Shown piece by piece: positions 2,469 through 7,591 of a stretch of DNA of 28,821 nt. Below the pieces are notes generated by a model, which saw nothing but the letters and a program-made list of their open reading frames with translations, was not told the origin of the DNA and did no database searches. The stretch is from a virus. How positions within the stretch are numbered: the first letter of the stretch is position 1; every line of letters starts with the position of its first letter. The stretch lies in IMG/VR virus record IMGVR_UViG_3300042868_002495, positions 1-28,821 of that record. One strand, given 5' to 3'. The position numbers and the translations under genes were made by a program.

Positions 2469-3107
2469 ATGGACATTACTATAACACACGATGAATCAAA
2501 GTGGTTAGATTTACGACAAGGTAAATTTACGGCATCTGAAATTCACAAGCTAATGGGTACTCCGAGAAACAAATCGGAGTACCTTTCAGAGACGGCAAAG
2601 ACATTTGTGTACGACAAAGCAAGTGAACTATTAACTGGTATTAGAAAGCCAATTTGGGGCGAAGCGTTAACGTGGGGAACTGAAAACGAAAAGGAAGCGT
2701 TTGAGGTATTCCAACAAAACCAAGATGAGTTTTACACTTATTACGGTGGCGAGACTTATACATTTATTCCCTATGGTGAGTATTCAGGTTATAGCCCTGA
2801 TGCACTTGGTGGTAATTGCATAGTCGAAATAAAAAACCCTTTCAATAGTGGAATACATTTAAAGAATAGGTCAATCAAATGTGCTGAAGATTTAGGGAAA
2901 ATTCATGCAGAATACTACTGGCAAATGCAATTGGGAATGATAGCAAGTGCAGTTGACTTCGGTTACTTTGTTAGTTATGACAAACGTATGCCAGGTACTC
3001 ACAATCTATTCATAGCTCACATAGAACTTGAGGATGTACAAGAAATCATTGATGAAAAACTATATTACGCCAATGAGTTGTTACAGTCAATTGTCACAGA
3101 ATTGTAA
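2469..3107 (+). CDS. YqaJ-type (lambda exonuclease-like) recombination exonuclease
   Basis: A 212-residue PD-(D/E)XK nuclease of the YqaJ/lambda-exo class, expected to resect dsDNA ends so that Erf can load on the exposed strand. Order of motifs: W-L-x-L-R-Q-G-K-F-T-A-S-E (12-24), W-G-T-E-N-E (69-74, first acidic helix), S-P-D-A (Asp111), V-E-I-K-N-P (Glu120-x-Lys122, catalytic core) and Y-W-Q-M-Q (150-154). All expected active-site residues are present. It follows erf after 17 nt and has no clear Shine-Dalgarno. Confidence 0.88.
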   Translation: MDITITHDESKWLDLRQGKFTASEIHKLMGTPRNKSEYLSETAKTFVYDKASELLTGIRKPIWGEALTWGTENEKEAFEVFQQNQDEFYTYYGGETYTFIPYGEYSGYSPDALGGNCIVEIKNPFNSGIHLKNRSIKCAEDLGKIHAEYYWQMQLGMIASAVDFGYFVSYDKRMPGTHNLFIAHIELEDVQEIIDEKLYYANELLQSIVTEL

Positions 3108-3122
3108 ACAATATAAAATAAA

Positions 3123-3155
3123 TTTGCAATATTGAAAATAATTATATTATATTTG
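3123..3155 (+). promoter_or_regulatory. Bacteroidota-type promoter of the 3173-4019 genes
   Basis: TTTG (3123-3126), a 21-nt spacer, then TATATTTG (3148-3155): an exact match to the TTTG / TAnnTTTG consensus. The expected start of transcription is near 3160, about 12 nt before the ATG at 3173. The upstream A/T-rich flank resembles that of the 1470 promoter. Confidence 0.82.
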
Positions 3156-3172
3156 CTAAACAATAAAACGAT

Positions 3173-3361
3173 ATGAAAAAGACAATCATTCAAAATTTCC
3201 CAAGTAAAGCTGATGCTTTCGAGTGGGTAATGTTTAAAATGTTGGATGCAACAGTAGGTTGTATAACAACAACGCAGCAGTTTAGAGATAACGACGCTAT
3301 CATCGGTGAAGATGAAGATGTTATTTATGTAGGTATTTATAACGTAACCGAAAATGTTTAA
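3173..3361 (+). CDS. Small protein of unknown function
   Basis: A 62-residue soluble protein, first gene behind the 3148 promoter. It opens with K-K-T-I-I-Q-N-F-P and ends in an acidic segment followed by V-I-Y-V-G-I-Y-N-V. No known motif was recognised. It overlaps the next gene by 8 nt. The promoter position and tight coupling support a real gene, probably expressed early. Confidence 0.65.
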   Translation: MKKTIIQNFPSKADAFEWVMFKMLDATVGCITTTQQFRDNDAIIGEDEDVIYVGIYNVTENV

Positions 3362-3572
3362 TTTAATTTTGTTATTCGTGTACATCGGTTGTGTGACATT
3401 TTTATTTATGTTATACTTTACGCTTAAAAAAGAACCAAGTGAAGCTACACGTCAAGAATTTATCGACGTAAACGATATGCCCGACTGGCAGCCATTGAAC
3501 CCTGTTGCAAAGCGCAGCAACCAGGCACTTAAAAAAATGTACAAAGGAAGTTTAAAAAATGATTTAGTATGA
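3354..3572 (+). CDS. Single-pass membrane protein of unknown function
   Basis: A 72-residue protein with a hydrophobic helix at residues 2-23 followed by L-K-K-E-P, so the N-terminus probably anchors it in the inner membrane with a polar C-terminal tail of about 45 residues. The tail holds D-M-P-D-W-Q-P-L-N-P and a basic end. No family is recognised. It overlaps the genes on both sides, in a run of tiny membrane proteins. Confidence 0.62.
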   Translation: MFNLILLFVYIGCVTFLFMLYFTLKKEPSEATRQEFIDVNDMPDWQPLNPVAKRSNQALKKMYKGSLKNDLV

Positions 3573-3688
3573 AAACAATTTTAGAAATAATCGGACTTGT
3601 TATAATTTTCACAATTATGTTAGTTTTTGTATGGAATTTTGCAGAATATTTAGATAGGCTTTTTAGAAAATTATTTAAGAACAGATGA
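3569..3688 (+). CDS. 39-residue membrane peptide
   Basis: A short frame starting inside the upstream stop (ATGA at 3569). It encodes 39 residues: M-K-T-I-L-E, one hydrophobic helix (about 7-24), then W-N-F-A-E-Y and a basic C-terminus (R-L-F-R-K-L-F-K-N-R). The helix plus positive end is typical of small single-pass inner-membrane phage peptides. No function is assigned. The stop-start coupling on both sides is the main argument that it is translated. Confidence 0.5.
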   Translation: MKTILEIIGLVIIFTIMLVFVWNFAEYLDRLFRKLFKNR

Positions 3689-3738
3689 AACACATTTATA
3701 GAATTTTAACGGCTTTAATTTTGACACTATGCTTATAA
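3685..3738 (+). CDS. Possible 17-residue leader-like peptide
   Basis: ATGA at 3685-3688 links this frame to the previous peptide. It encodes M-K-H-I-Y-R-I-L-T-A-L-I-L-T-L-C-L and stops at 3736, after the next gene has begun at 3729. It has the K/R-plus-hydrophobic look of a signal peptide or tiny toxin-like peptide. It may simply relay ribosomes to 3729. Support is weak because of its length. Confidence 0.25.
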   Translation: MKHIYRILTALILTLCL

Positions 3739-4019
3739 TCAAAGAAGTAAAACAACGCTTAGAAAATAGCACAAAAATGCGTGACGATGACGCTTTACTA
3801 ATGGCTGATATTTGGCGTCAAGAATTAGCAGAACTTGGTGCAAAATCTGTCTACGATGTTTTAAACGCTATTGCTGGTCGAATGGTCACTTCGCCTGAAT
3901 CAATTAGACGGTCAAGACAAAAAGTACAACAAGACAATGCAAATCTTCGTGGTAACGTTTACAATCAACGACACGCAAAAGAAATTGAAGTTTTAAAAGA
4001 ATTAGGATATACAAAATAA
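3729..4019 (+). CDS. Conserved-looking phage protein of unknown function
   Basis: A 96-residue, charged, probably all-helical protein. Visible features: D-D-D-A-L-L-M-A-D-I-W-R-Q-E-L, then S-P-E-S-I-R-R-S-R-Q-K-V-Q-Q and L-R-G-N-V-Y-N-Q-R. The S-P-E-S-I-R-R segment looks like a helix-turn-helix-type positioning of an Arg-rich helix, so nucleic acid binding is possible but unproven. Last gene of the transcript from the 3148 promoter; the non-coding unit at 4026-4133 follows directly. Confidence 0.65.
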   Translation: MLIIKEVKQRLENSTKMRDDDALLMADIWRQELAELGAKSVYDVLNAIAGRMVTSPESIRRSRQKVQQDNANLRGNVYNQRHAKEIEVLKELGYTK

Positions 4020-4025
4020 ATAATA

Positions 4026-4033
4026 TATATTTG
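4026..4033 (+). promoter_or_regulatory. -7 promoter box of the 4039-4133 RNA
   Basis: TATATTTG, an exact TAnnTTTG match. No good TTTG lies 19-21 nt upstream, so the -33 part is weak. The expected transcription start (about 5-7 nt downstream) coincides with the first base of the hairpin at 4039. Confidence 0.62.
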
Positions 4034-4038
4034 TATTG

Positions 4039-4133
4039 TTAAGTGGAATGTTCAGGATTCCGAGTACTTAAAAAATATTTGCTCAATTAAAATAGTCGCA
4101 CCTGAACTGCACTATTTTGGTTGGGCTTTTTTT
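4039..4133 (+). ncRNA. Candidate structured RNA with two complementary (kissing) loops
   Basis: No gene covers 4020-4137. From the predicted start near 4039 the RNA folds into two hairpins. Hairpin 1: TTAAGT-GGAAT (4039-4049) pairs with ATTCC (4057-4061) and, after a 4-nt GAGT bulge, with ACTTAA (4066-4071); its loop is GTTCAGG (4050-4056). Hairpin 2: 4081-4100 pairs with 4108-4126 (19 bp, three G-U pairs, C4097 bulged); its loop is CCTGAAC (4101-4107). The two 7-nt loops are exact reverse complements, as in kissing complexes. Hairpin 2 runs into seven T, so transcription should end near 4133, giving about 95 nt. It could be a free small RNA or an attenuator of the replication operon that starts at 4138. 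Confidence 0.65.
4081..4133 (+). terminator. Intrinsic terminator (hairpin 2 of the structured RNA)
   Basis: A 19-bp stem (GCTCAATTAAAATAGT plus GCA against TGC plus ACTATTTTGGTTGGGC), loop CCTGAAC, then T7 at 4127-4133. It ends 4 nt before the ATG of the nuclease gene, so read-through is required for that gene unless another promoter exists. Confidence 0.75.
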
Positions 4134-4137
4134 ATTT

Positions 4138-4623
4138 ATGAAATTTTTAGAAAAAGATTTGGAAACAATCATCTATGAATCTGGAAGGGATTTATTAGAC
4201 GAAAGAGGTTTAGCCATTGAAGGTAAACTTTTAAGACAAGTGAAAATTGGTAATTATGGAATTGCTGATTTAATTTATTATTCACGTCCGTATTACAAGG
4301 GTAAAAAATTATTCTTTCCTGGACAAGTAACTATTATTGAATTAAAGAAAGAAAAGATTGGTATTGCATCATTTTTACAATCAATTCAATATGTAAAAGG
4401 AGTAATTGCATATTTAGAATATAAAAATGTATCACATTTATTTGATATAAATATTAAATTAATTGGTAAAGAATTGGATACACAAGGTAGTTTTTGTTTT
4501 ATTACTGATTTATTAAATGTTAAAGGGTGTGGAACAATTGAATATTATACTTATGATTTTAAAATTGATGGTATAAATTTTAATCTTGAAAGTGGTTATG
4601 ATTTAACAAACAAAGGTTTTTAA
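4138..4623 (+). CDS. PD-(D/E)XK nuclease-like protein
   Basis: A 161-residue protein with the core of a PD-(D/E)XK nuclease: G-N-Y-G-I-A-D-L-I (Asp44), then V-T-I-I-E-L-K-K (Glu68-x-Lys70) and a following helix with Q-S-I-Q-Y (Gln84), the arrangement seen in NucS/DUF91-like and related phage nucleases. Glu9 in the first helix may be the fourth active-site residue. The ATG at 4138 is preferred to the in-frame TTG at 4117, which lies inside the terminator stem. The gene is markedly more A/T-rich than most neighbours (12 G/C in the 60 nt at 4381-4440). First gene after the terminator, leading into the replication genes. Confidence 0.7.
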   Translation: MKFLEKDLETIIYESGRDLLDERGLAIEGKLLRQVKIGNYGIADLIYYSRPYYKGKKLFFPGQVTIIELKKEKIGIASFLQSIQYVKGVIAYLEYKNVSHLFDINIKLIGKELDTQGSFCFITDLLNVKGCGTIEYYTYDFKIDGINFNLESGYDLTNKGF

Positions 4624-4625
4624 TT

Positions 4626-5318
4626 ATGGCAATATTTAGAAAAATACATACATCATTTTGGAGTGATACATTTATTCAAGAACTGGATAATGAACATAGA
4701 TTATTTTATTTATATCTTTTGACAAATGAAAGAACTAAACAATGTGGCATATACGAAATAAGTAAAAAACAAATGTCTTTTGATTTAGGATACAGTATAG
4801 ATAGAGTATCTAAACTGATTAAATACTTTATAAAAATAGGTAAAATTCTATATTCTGAAGATACAAAAGAGATTGCATTAAAAAATTGGAATAAATATAA
4901 TGGTTCTTCAAGTCCAAAAGTTGTAAGTTGCATTCAGTCAGAACTTAAGCAAATAAAAGATAGAGTATTGATAGAGTATGTAAATGGTATGTATACTGCA
5001 TCGCAAGAAGAACAAGAACAAGAAGAAGAAGAAGAACAAGAAAAAGAAGTATTTGATATTGATTTTTTTAATACAGTTTGGAACTTGTATAATAAGAAAT
5101 TAAATAAAGACGAAAGTCTATCGGCATTCAAAAAAATAAAGTCAAGTGAATATGAGTTAATTAAAAACCATATTCCTAATTTTGTAAATCAATTTAAGGA
5201 CAAACAATATCAACCGTACTTTTCAACATATTTAAATAAAAAAAGATGGCAAGATGAAGTTGAAACAAAAAAACCAGTACAACCACGATTAGAAAGGAGA
5301 GCAAATTTAGATGATTAA
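4626..5318 (+). CDS. Replication initiator / helicase-loader-like protein (DnaD-like)
   Basis: A 230-residue protein with the N-terminal winged-helix layout common in Bacteroidota phage replication proteins: R-K-I-H-T-S-F-W (5-12), H-R-L-F-Y-L-Y-L-L-T-N-E (24-35), Q-C-G-I-Y-E-I (39-45), then N-W-x-K-Y-N and S-S-P-K-V. A Glu/Gln-rich linker at about residues 127-142 leads to a C-terminal helical domain (W-N-L-Y-N-K-K ... Y-L-N-K-K-R-W) like DnaD/DnaT-type loaders. The DnaB-like helicase follows with an 8-nt overlap, which fits initiation and helicase loading at the phage origin. The exact biochemical role is inferred from context. Confidence 0.7.
   Translation: MAIFRKIHTSFWSDTFIQELDNEHRLFYLYLLTNERTKQCGIYEISKKQMSFDLGYSIDRVSKLIKYFIKIGKILYSEDTKEIALKNWNKYNGSSSPKVVSCIQSELKQIKDRVLIEYVNGMYTASQEEQEQEEEEEQEKEVFDIDFFNTVWNLYNKKLNKDESLSAFKKIKSSEYELIKNHIPNFVNQFKDKQYQPYFSTYLNKKRWQDEVETKKPVQPRLERRANLDD
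5004..5049 (+). repeat. Purine-rich CAAGAA/GAA tract
   Basis: A low-complexity run of CAAGAA and GAA units, almost all purine on the + strand, encoding the Glu/Gln linker between the two domains of the initiator-like protein. Such tracts vary in length by slippage. It may only reflect the linker's amino-acid bias. Confidence 0.6.
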
Positions 5319-6534
5319 CTATTCAGAAGACAACATAATGGGTGCATTTATAATGTCCGATTATGCAAAGACAAAATTACCAAGTGTAAACCCTAAATGG
5401 TTTAACGACTTCAATTCAAGGGTTGTGACTATAATGCAACAACTTTACTACGATAGTAAACCAATAGCATTACACACTTTATTCCCATTTTTTAAAGATT
5501 ATGCATTTCAGTTGACGGATTTTACACGAAAATTCGTCACAGATAAAACTTTAGATTATGATTTGTTATTACTTGAAGTAAATTACAAGAAAACAAAACT
5601 GGTTGAAGATGTCGCTAAAATCGATTTTAACGATGAATTAAACGACTTACAGAATAAATTGGATATATGTATTCAAGAAAGTAGAATAAGCGTTAAAAAT
5701 CAAATAAAACCAATGTCAAAAGTAATTGGTAATGTATTAGACGAATTACAACAAAGAATTGATAGGGGAAATACACTTGAAGGTTTACCTACTGGATGGA
5801 GATATTTGGACAAATACATTGGTGGATGGTCAAAAGGTAACTTAGTTGTGATAGGTGCGAGACCAGGAATGGGCAAAACTGCACTCGGTTTAAATTTCTG
5901 TATTGAAGGTTGTAAATTTGCAAAGTATTTATTTGTTTCAATTGAAATGTCAGATGAAGAATTAGCCAAAAGGCAAATTAGTTATTTCTCTAACATTGAA
6001 AATTATAAAATTCGCAACGCTAATATGACATCTAAAGACATCGAAAACATATCTGAGATGTTATACAACAACGAACACGACTTTGATGTGATAGATTCAA
6101 AAGATAATAACGTGTTTAGTATAATATCGGTGTGTAAATTATTGAAAGCCCGTAAAGGTTTAGATGTGGTTGTAATTGATTACTTGCAAAAGATGGATGC
6201 AAACGAAAAAGATACTCGTAAAAATGTAGCGACTATTTCAACTGCGTTAAAAAACTTTGCACGTGAAACTGGAGTTACTGTGATTGCACTTGCACAATTA
6301 AATCGTGACGGCAAAGAAGATAGACCACAACTTACAGATTTAAAAGAATCAGGACAGATAGAACAAGACGCTGATGTCGTTTTGTTTCCTTATCGACCAT
6401 CGTATTATTTAGATGTAAAGCCTGATGTTGAAATGGATTGTGAGTTAATCATTGGTAAAAATCGTCACGGTCAATGCATAGACATTCCAATGAGTTTTGA
6501 AGGTAAGTACACACGTTATAAAGAAATATTATGA
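5311..6534 (+). CDS. dnaB: DnaB-like replicative DNA helicase
   Basis: A 407-residue member of the DnaB/RecA-fold hexameric helicases that unwinds DNA ahead of the phage fork. An N-terminal domain resembling DnaB-N (E-D-N-I-M-G-A-F-I) is followed by G-L-P-T-G-W-R-Y-L-D (about 158-167), Walker A G-A-R-P-G-M-G-K-T (182-190), I-E-M-S, Walker B V-V-V-I-D-Y-L-Q, the L-A-Q-L-N-R motif, and D-L-K-E-S-G-Q-I-E-Q-D-A-D near the end. It is somewhat shorter than cellular DnaB, mainly in the N-terminal half. It overlaps the loader-like gene upstream and the methylase downstream (ATGA), so it lies in one replication operon. Confidence 0.93.
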   Translation: MINYSEDNIMGAFIMSDYAKTKLPSVNPKWFNDFNSRVVTIMQQLYYDSKPIALHTLFPFFKDYAFQLTDFTRKFVTDKTLDYDLLLLEVNYKKTKLVEDVAKIDFNDELNDLQNKLDICIQESRISVKNQIKPMSKVIGNVLDELQQRIDRGNTLEGLPTGWRYLDKYIGGWSKGNLVVIGARPGMGKTALGLNFCIEGCKFAKYLFVSIEMSDEELAKRQISYFSNIENYKIRNANMTSKDIENISEMLYNNEHDFDVIDSKDNNVFSIISVCKLLKARKGLDVVVIDYLQKMDANEKDTRKNVATISTALKNFARETGVTVIALAQLNRDGKEDRPQLTDLKESGQIEQDADVVLFPYRPSYYLDVKPDVEMDCELIIGKNRHGQCIDIPMSFEGKYTRYKEIL

Positions 6535-7145
6535 TAAGCGAAGTTAAAAATATGGACTGCATGGAATATATGCAGCAGTTTCCTGATAACTATTTTGAGT
6601 TGGCTATTGTTGACCCGCCGTATGGGATTAATGTTAAAACAAGAATATTTAACGATAATAAAAAATGGGATAATCAAATACCATCAAAAGAATATTTTGA
6701 TGAATTATTTAGAGTTTCAAAAAATCAAATTATTTGGGGTGGTAATTATTTTTTAGATTATTTATCGCCTACGGCTTGTTATATTATTTGGGATAAAAAA
6801 ATGACAGATAAACATCTTATGTCTATGTCAGAATTTGCGTGGACTTCTTTTAATACAAAAAATTTAATATTTAGACAACCACCAGTAGGGGATAGAGGTT
6901 TTTATAATATTGATGGAAAAAGAATTCATCCAACTCAAAAAAGTATAAAATTATACCAATGGTTATTACAAAACTATGCAAAGCCAAATGATAAAATTTT
7001 AGATACTCATTTAGGTTCAGGAAGTTCACGTATTGCAGCCGATATGGAAGGGTTTGATTTTTACGCTTGTGAACTTGACAAAGATTATTTTGATGCAAGT
7101 TGCAAAAGATTTGAAGAATACAAACAACAATTAAAACTATTATGA
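6531..7145 (+). CDS. DNA adenine N6-methyltransferase
   Basis: A 204-residue SAM-dependent DNA methylase. The catalytic motif D-P-P-Y-G (28-32) comes first, H-P-T-Q-K-S lies at 133-138, and the SAM-binding motif D-T-H-L-G-S-G-S-S at 158-166. Motif IV before motif I is the beta-class order. No restriction endonuclease partner is adjacent, so it is best read as an orphan phage methylase that would mark phage DNA against host restriction or time replication. There is little room between the motifs for a target-recognition domain, so the site is probably short, but it cannot be predicted. The middle of the gene is strongly A/T-rich compared with dnaB. Confidence 0.88.
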   Translation: MISEVKNMDCMEYMQQFPDNYFELAIVDPPYGINVKTRIFNDNKKWDNQIPSKEYFDELFRVSKNQIIWGGNYFLDYLSPTACYIIWDKKMTDKHLMSMSEFAWTSFNTKNLIFRQPPVGDRGFYNIDGKRIHPTQKSIKLYQWLLQNYAKPNDKILDTHLGSGSSRIAADMEGFDFYACELDKDYFDASCKRFEEYKQQLKLL

Positions 7146-7591
7146 TAGATTATTATGTTTTATATCTCAAAGAACGTCGCCAAGTGCGATATTTAGAAAA
7201 CAAAGTAGAAGTAAGCGAACGAAACTACCAAAAAGAAATACAACGCTTAAAGGAAATGATTATAAACCCAATCCACAAGATGAACAAGAACAAAGAACTA
7301 ACAGAAATTTTGCAAAAGGTTTGTGATGCCAGTGGTATTATGCCACACGACATAATTTCCAAGAACAGAAAGCGTGAAATAGTTATAGCACGTCAACTAT
7401 TTTGTTATATCACAGTCAAATATTTTAACTACACTTTAAAGAACGTAGGTAATTTTTTAATTCGTGACCATAGCACCGTTATACATAGCGTAAACGCTTA
7501 CACAGATTATTTACAAATGAGATACAAAAACGAAACTGCAATATATGAGGATGCAAAAAACCTTTTATCAATTGGTGATGCAAAAGGATAA
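7142..7591 (+). CDS. DnaA domain IV-like DNA-binding protein
   Basis: A 149-residue protein with an N-terminal coiled-coil-like segment (about 8-40) and a C-terminal domain resembling DnaA domain IV. That domain shows R-E-I-V-I-A-R-Q-L-F-C-Y-I (78-90), T-L-K-N-V-G-N-F-L (98-106) and R-D-H-S-T-V-I-H-S (108-116), the counterpart of the DnaA signature R-D-H-T-T-V. There is no Walker A/B, so the AAA+ ATPase part is missing. It sits in the replication operon (ATGA overlap with the methylase), so it may mark the phage origin or compete for host DnaA boxes. Fold assignment is fairly firm; the role is inferred. Confidence 0.78.
   Translation: MIDYYVLYLKERRQVRYLENKVEVSERNYQKEIQRLKEMIINPIHKMNKNKELTEILQKVCDASGIMPHDIISKNRKREIVIARQLFCYITVKYFNYTLKNVGNFLIRDHSTVIHSVNAYTDYLQMRYKNETAIYEDAKNLLSIGDAKG

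Follow-up and report, generated by a model that had tools for sequence, protein, structure and literature searches.

A two-hairpin RNA with complementary, covarying loops precedes the replication genes of a group of uncultivated phages

Results

The window, by which we mean the whole 28,821-nucleotide stretch of DNA analysed here, is the 28.8-kb record of an uncultivated phage whose genes include those for an Erf recombinase, a YqaJ-type exonuclease, a DnaD-like initiator, a DnaB helicase, a terminase and a portal protein. Between the gene for a 96-aa protein and the replication operon lies a short intergenic segment (Table 1) in which a promoter-like box is followed by two hairpins and a run of seven Ts, which ends 4 nt before the next ATG (4138). 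All the elements named in a preliminary description of this DNA (the box, the two hairpins, both loops and the T-run) are found in the sequence where it had placed them, and the loops, GTTCAGG and CCTGAAC, are exact reverse complements. The box has the form TAnnTTTG, the −7 element of Bacteroidota promoters, whose end lies at −5 (PMC6847099). The RNA predicted to start at the foot of hairpin 1 folds with −30.1 kcal/mol (z = −4.26 against shuffled sequences), and its minimum free energy (MFE) structure leaves both loops as unpaired 7-nt loops. The earlier proposal of a structured RNA, some 95 nt long and placed immediately ahead of the replication operon, is supported at the level of a predicted transcript. 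A second promoter within the linker, where GATATTTG resembles TAnnTTTG, was considered and rejected, because its first T is absent in the family and its last G is not conserved.

Table 1. Features of the two-hairpin element and of the genes around it, in window coordinates.
Feature	Position	Strand	Evidence or remark
96-aa gene	3729..4019	+	no Pfam/PHROG match; upstream of the RNA, not always adjacent in relatives
Putative Bacteroidota −7 promoter element TATATTTG (TAnnTTTG)	4026..4033	+	sequence; consensus from PMC6847099
Predicted +1, foot of hairpin 1	G4038	+	spacing from the TAnnTTTG box, PMC6847099
RNA, ~96 nt, predicted start to end of T-run	4038..4133	+	fold, match to covariance model R1, 77 distinct relatives; predicted transcript
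Hairpin 1	4039..4071	+	lower stem TTAAGT/ACTTAA, upper stem GGAAT/ATTCC, 7-nt loop
Hairpin 1 bulge GAGT	4062-4065	+	
Loop 1, GTTCAGG	4050..4056	+	exact complement of loop 2; co-varies in all relatives
A-rich linker AAAATATTT, nine bases	4072..4080	+	linkers of relatives: AAAAGATATTT, AAAGACATTT
Hairpin 2, 19-bp terminator stem (16 + 3 bp)	4081..4126	+	one-base bulge at 4097; apical stem of 3 bp
Loop 2, CCTGAAC	4101..4107	+	exact complement of loop 1; co-varies in all relatives
T7 run, completing the predicted intrinsic terminator	4127..4133	+	sequence; T-run in all relatives
First gene of the downstream operon, 161 aa	4138..4623	+	no Pfam or PHROG match
Replication initiator (DnaD-like / replisome organizer)	4626..5318	+	PHROG 6251, E = 5e-47; PHROG 1701, E = 1e-37
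DnaB-like replicative helicase	5311..6534	+	PF03796, E = 1.3e-70; PHROG 19, E = 3.9e-75

Three of the neighbouring proteins may be described briefly. The 96-aa protein is highly conserved and has no relative in the cultured phages or cellular genomes scanned; the 161-aa protein (4138-4623) contains the sequence IIELKKEK, which by eye resembles a PD-(D/E)XK nuclease; and the phage protein encoded at 7142-7591 contains the DnaA C-terminal helix-turn-helix domain (PF08299, E = 1.9e-19).

In random first-order sequences of equal length, two hairpins with complementary loops arise on average 0.22 times per strand, and TAnnTTTG boxes occur in the window at chance frequency (52 observed, 49.8 expected). 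Taken by itself, the loop match in this single window is therefore weak evidence, being only mildly unlikely by chance.

A search with the 96-aa protein returned 35 viral contigs, where the same architecture recurs with other loops, either after the 96-aa gene or further downstream where genes intervene; the loop pairs include GTAGAAG/CTTCTAC, GTAAGAG/CTCTTAC, GTCAGAT/ATCTGAC and GTACAAG/CTTGTAC. A loop-blind DNA pattern on hairpin 1 returned 37 contigs, four of them chance matches in unrelated sequence without the RNA, and every RNA-bearing one has complementary loops. Further loci were matched by the covariance model R1, which treats both loops as unpaired, and DnaB searches brought in phages with DnaB identities of only ~36-50%. 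After removal of one false row, the collection comprises 77 distinct RNA sequences, and the loops, 6 to 9 nt long, come in about 30 alleles, a count that includes four loci (L018, L119, L244 and L328) added to the 77-sequence set.

The RNA lies upstream of the initiator and dnaB genes in every locus with a dnaB relative that extends more than ~610 nt upstream of dnaB; the dnaB loci that lack it are contigs starting closer than this, and L125 begins inside the RNA. The gene that follows varies, belonging to one of several unrelated initiator families or being a small extra gene placed before them, and the position of the RNA is invariant although the initiators have such diverse origins. No DNA match around the RNA was found in cultured phage records, whose DnaB relatives are distant only (<60% identity, and 28-38% among the best matches listed), and DnaB matches in cellular genomes have ~30% identity, the RNA not having been found in their vicinity. 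Judging from the TAnnTTTG box alone, the host is apparently a member of the Bacteroidota.

The preliminary description had proposed, as a check, to see whether the two loops change jointly in related phages, and this check was passed: complementary loops are kept in all 45 distinct RNAs that were found by means blind to loop pairing (for nearly all of them the covariance model). In 44 of these the complementary loop of 6-8 nt sits within closed hairpins; in the last, L018, 7/7 loop pairs are present by eye and the terminator apex is unpaired. An alignment of nine sequences has double changes at 6/7 loop pairs, with 100% of cells paired, and one of 26 sequences has them at all 7, with a loop-loop covariation score of 0.79 against 0.17 for shuffled sequences and at most 0.13 for slid registers; the 26 were chosen by a detector that demands complementarity, so that their 100% pairing is partly by construction. 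Loop changes come in matched pairs and G-U intermediates are rare; the single G-U pair in L119 and its kin (GTGGGAG with CTTCCAC) reads as an intermediate between paired states.

The stems are supported in the same manner, with double changes at all 5 pairs of the hairpin-1 upper stem (26 sequences) and in the stem of hairpin 2, which measures 15-21 bp across the family; the lower stem of hairpin 1 is missing in part of the family. The A-rich linker is similar in most relatives and spans 9-19 nt when counted from the outermost hairpin-1 pair, or 13-25 nt from the upper stem. Since loop 1 is closed mostly by a U-A pair and loop 2 mostly by an A-U pair, the complementarity does not continue past the loops, as one would expect of a kissing complex. 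The comparison confirms that the observation lies far beyond chance, and the two-hairpin element appears to mark a new RNA family.

No third conserved target of the loops was found in their contigs. A third copy of the loop-1 motif (TTCGCAGC), placed after the terminator and just before the start codon of the initiator gene, occurs in the TCGCAGC group only (L144, L151, L157, L286, L310, L319, L331 and L333). Loops of 9 nt (TGAGAGAGA/TCTCTCTCA) are found in L246, L247, L249, L250, L252 and L267, and the TGAGAGAGA group has an imperfect third copy (ATGAGAGAGT) at the initiation codon of the gene that follows.

In 62 of the 77 distinct relatives a TAnnTTTG box stands ahead of loop 1, in most cases at a distance of 24-28 nt. 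The other 15 divide into two with TAnnTTCG and 13 with the box further upstream; in these 13 an extra hairpin and T-run lie between the distant box and hairpin 1, making tandem terminators (the upstream sequence was inspected for ten of them). Such tandem-terminator leaders, with a second promoter-like box, a hairpin and a T-run immediately before the two-hairpin RNA, are seen in L250, L277, L259, L261, L248, L254, L255, L113 and L116. All 77 variants have the T-run, and a start codon follows 0-14 nt downstream wherever one was identified, a spacing that leaves out three variants with no assigned start. A predicted intrinsic terminator thus stands between the promoter and the first start codon, as in an attenuator, and because the T-run abuts the start codon there is no room for another promoter, so that the operon would depend on read-through.

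For predicted transcripts truncated right after loop 2, 53 of the 77 MFE structures hold a nested helix between loop 1 and loop 2, and this helix is not consistently extended beyond the loops. With more of the terminator 3′ arm added, the terminator hairpin takes over in several transcripts. No conserved extended antiterminator was found.

Among 31 contigs with DnaB proteins ~99% identical (genes with 93-96% nucleotide identity to that of L287), there are seven loop alleles and five initiator families. Four alleles are combined with one and the same initiator family, and one allele is shared by two of these families; the RNA is therefore exchanged as a cassette. The loci L286-L319, with their ~99% identical DnaB proteins and five initiator families, look like a hot spot of replication-module exchange. 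Loop pairs were not seen to change faster than hairpin-1 stem pairs, and different alleles can partly pair with each other (60 of 306 cross combinations have at least 6/7 pairs), so that these comparisons lend no support to selection for distinct specificities.

Discussion

The RNA probably controls when the replication genes are switched on. Our preferred reading, which is tentative and which we would put somewhat short of an even chance, is that it is a cis-acting transcription attenuator, that is, a structured leader of the phage replication operon. The preliminary description had offered a regulator of replication, an attenuator or part of the origin, and among these the position of the T-run and the relatives with tandem terminators favour the attenuator. 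The comparison establishes the architecture of the RNA, the covariation of its loops, its constant position and its closeness to the start codon; from the sequences we infer the promoter, the start, the occurrence of termination, and both the existence and the direction of an effect of loop pairing on it. Transcription would start at about 4038 or upstream and yield hairpin 1, and the polymerase would then meet the intrinsic terminator made of hairpin 2 and the T7 run just before the first start codon, so that the replication genes would be made only through terminator read-through. Loop 1 would pair with the terminator loop as the latter leaves RNA polymerase, and this pairing would set how often the terminator is completed.

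The pairing itself can take the form of a kissing contact between two intact hairpins, or of a short-lived long-range helix that would exist before the terminator 3′ arm and compete with the terminator. Covariation cannot separate the two, and the confinement of the complementarity to the loops favours kissing. We dropped the idea that kissing within one molecule is sterically impossible, since a linker of 13-25 nt could span the terminator stem; by this rough geometry, the two loops of a single molecule could just reach each other, and loops of separate molecules could pair as well. Against the attenuator speak its long terminator stem, with which default read-through may be low, the fact that no conserved extended antiterminator was found, and the confinement of the complementarity to the loops, a limit more in keeping with kissing than with the helix of a classical antiterminator.

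The near-fixed distance of the TAnnTTTG box in 62 of the 77 variants, the terminator present in all of them, the stable fold and the conserved A-rich linker would also suit an independent phage sRNA that has a promoter and a terminator to itself, in which a compact kissing pseudoknot acts on some protein or other target and the next gene is close merely through genome compactness. We consider this unlikely. It would leave the downstream operon with no promoter, no other conserved match to the loops was found in the contigs, and 13 of the 77 variants have no near promoter and lie behind another terminator, where a free-standing sRNA gene is unexpected and a regulated leader is expected.

About equally doubtful is a trans-acting, self-pairing RNA. 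According to this proposal the terminated RNA would accumulate, loop 1 of one copy would pair with loop 2 of another to give dimers or rings, the level of the RNA would feed back on the operon, and the alleles would serve as self/non-self tags between co-infecting phages. In its favour, the loops are complementary to each other and not to themselves, as in the oligomers of phi29 pRNA (PMC7357161), they have no third conserved partner in their contigs, and seven alleles coexist among 31 phages with ~99% identical DnaB, four alleles being combined with one initiator family. However, with loop pairs changing no faster than the stem pairs of hairpin 1, point mutations give no hint of diversifying selection, the alleles partly cross-pair, the cassette exchange may be carried by the neighbouring genes, and the linker may be long enough for intramolecular pairing. 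The fullest version of the idea, an RNA class that recognises its own copies via a matched loop pair, whose terminated form regulates the replication operon both in the phage that encodes it and in any co-infecting phage and whose cassette-exchanged alleles are RNA-level compatibility groups, is somewhat less likely again.

Improbable, in our estimation, is a processive antitermination signal, in which the folded RNA would bind or modify RNA polymerase, as put and nut RNAs do, and let it pass both this terminator and those further on. The replication transcript does begin with two stem-loops, and some relatives have tandem terminators, but the signal would contain the very terminator that it has to override, and no partner protein was identified. 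A part in the replication origin, for example as a primer transcript, is very improbable: the RNA always adjoins the initiator and dnaB genes, but the window has no GC-skew switch at 4 kb (its genes run on one strand), and the RNA assorts independently of the initiator family. Finally, a chance or artefactual combination of a terminator with an unrelated hairpin, for which one could cite the only mildly unlikely match in the window (0.22 expected per strand), is refuted by the covariation of the loops, with ~30 alleles, all complementary, across 77 distinct RNAs, and we give it next to no weight.

The element is of interest in several respects. It is kept in every sufficiently long locus examined of a large group of uncultivated, apparently Bacteroidota phages, and we know of no earlier described control element for the replication genes of these phages. 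Its very clean loop-loop covariation would make it a convenient model in which to study RNA kissing and termination, and the approximately 30 natural matched loop pairs are in effect a ready mutant set with which pairing within molecules could be told from pairing between them.

The preliminary description had known of no described Bacteroidota phage RNA of this form, and our searches agree with it: with Rfam 15, the whole window gave no match at the gathering score (the best sub-threshold hit was a Tetrahymena snoRNA, 28.5 vs 50 bits), and a literature search of open-licence papers found no description of such an RNA. RNAI and RNAII of ColE1 are transcribed from opposite strands and are fully antisense to each other. 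The phage element shares with them loop-loop pairing and the tie to replication, but it has both loops in one predicted RNA on one strand; no TAnnTTTG box was found on the minus strand from 2989 to 5301, and with both loops in one predicted transcript and no sign of an antisense strand we rejected membership of that family. The put RNAs of HK022 and the nut sites of lambda are likewise RNA elements that lie early in a phage transcript and affect termination; to our knowledge they follow no complementary-loop rule.

The pRNA of phi29 is also a small RNA from a phage, and its two distinct stem-loops carry loops that complement each other (PMC7357161); the element resembles it in having two different complementary loops in one RNA. 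Unlike the element, which precedes replication genes, pRNA belongs to the packaging motor, and its molecules pair with one another through 4 bp. The distinct packaging and protein-primed replication of a phi29-like phage are not what the window encodes, with its terminase large subunit, portal and DnaB helicase, and this genome context rules out both membership of the pRNA family and a role as packaging RNA. GOLLD, ROOL and OLE are structured RNAs with kissing loops supported by covariation; GOLLD and ROOL are phage-borne and use the kissing loops in homo-oligomers (PMC12286853). The likeness lies in a structured RNA with covarying loop-loop pairing; those RNAs, however, are large, whereas the phage element has about 95 nt and an intrinsic terminator as its second hairpin, and the Rfam covariance models of GOLLD, ROOL and OLE have no match in the window. 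With attenuators that work through intrinsic terminators the element shares a structured leader and a terminator just upstream of the first start codon, and it may share an alternative helix; it differs from them in that the proposed pairing involves only the terminator loop and the loop of an upstream hairpin, and in that these are swapped as allele pairs. It is most safely filed as a new RNA family, most likely a variant of the attenuator.
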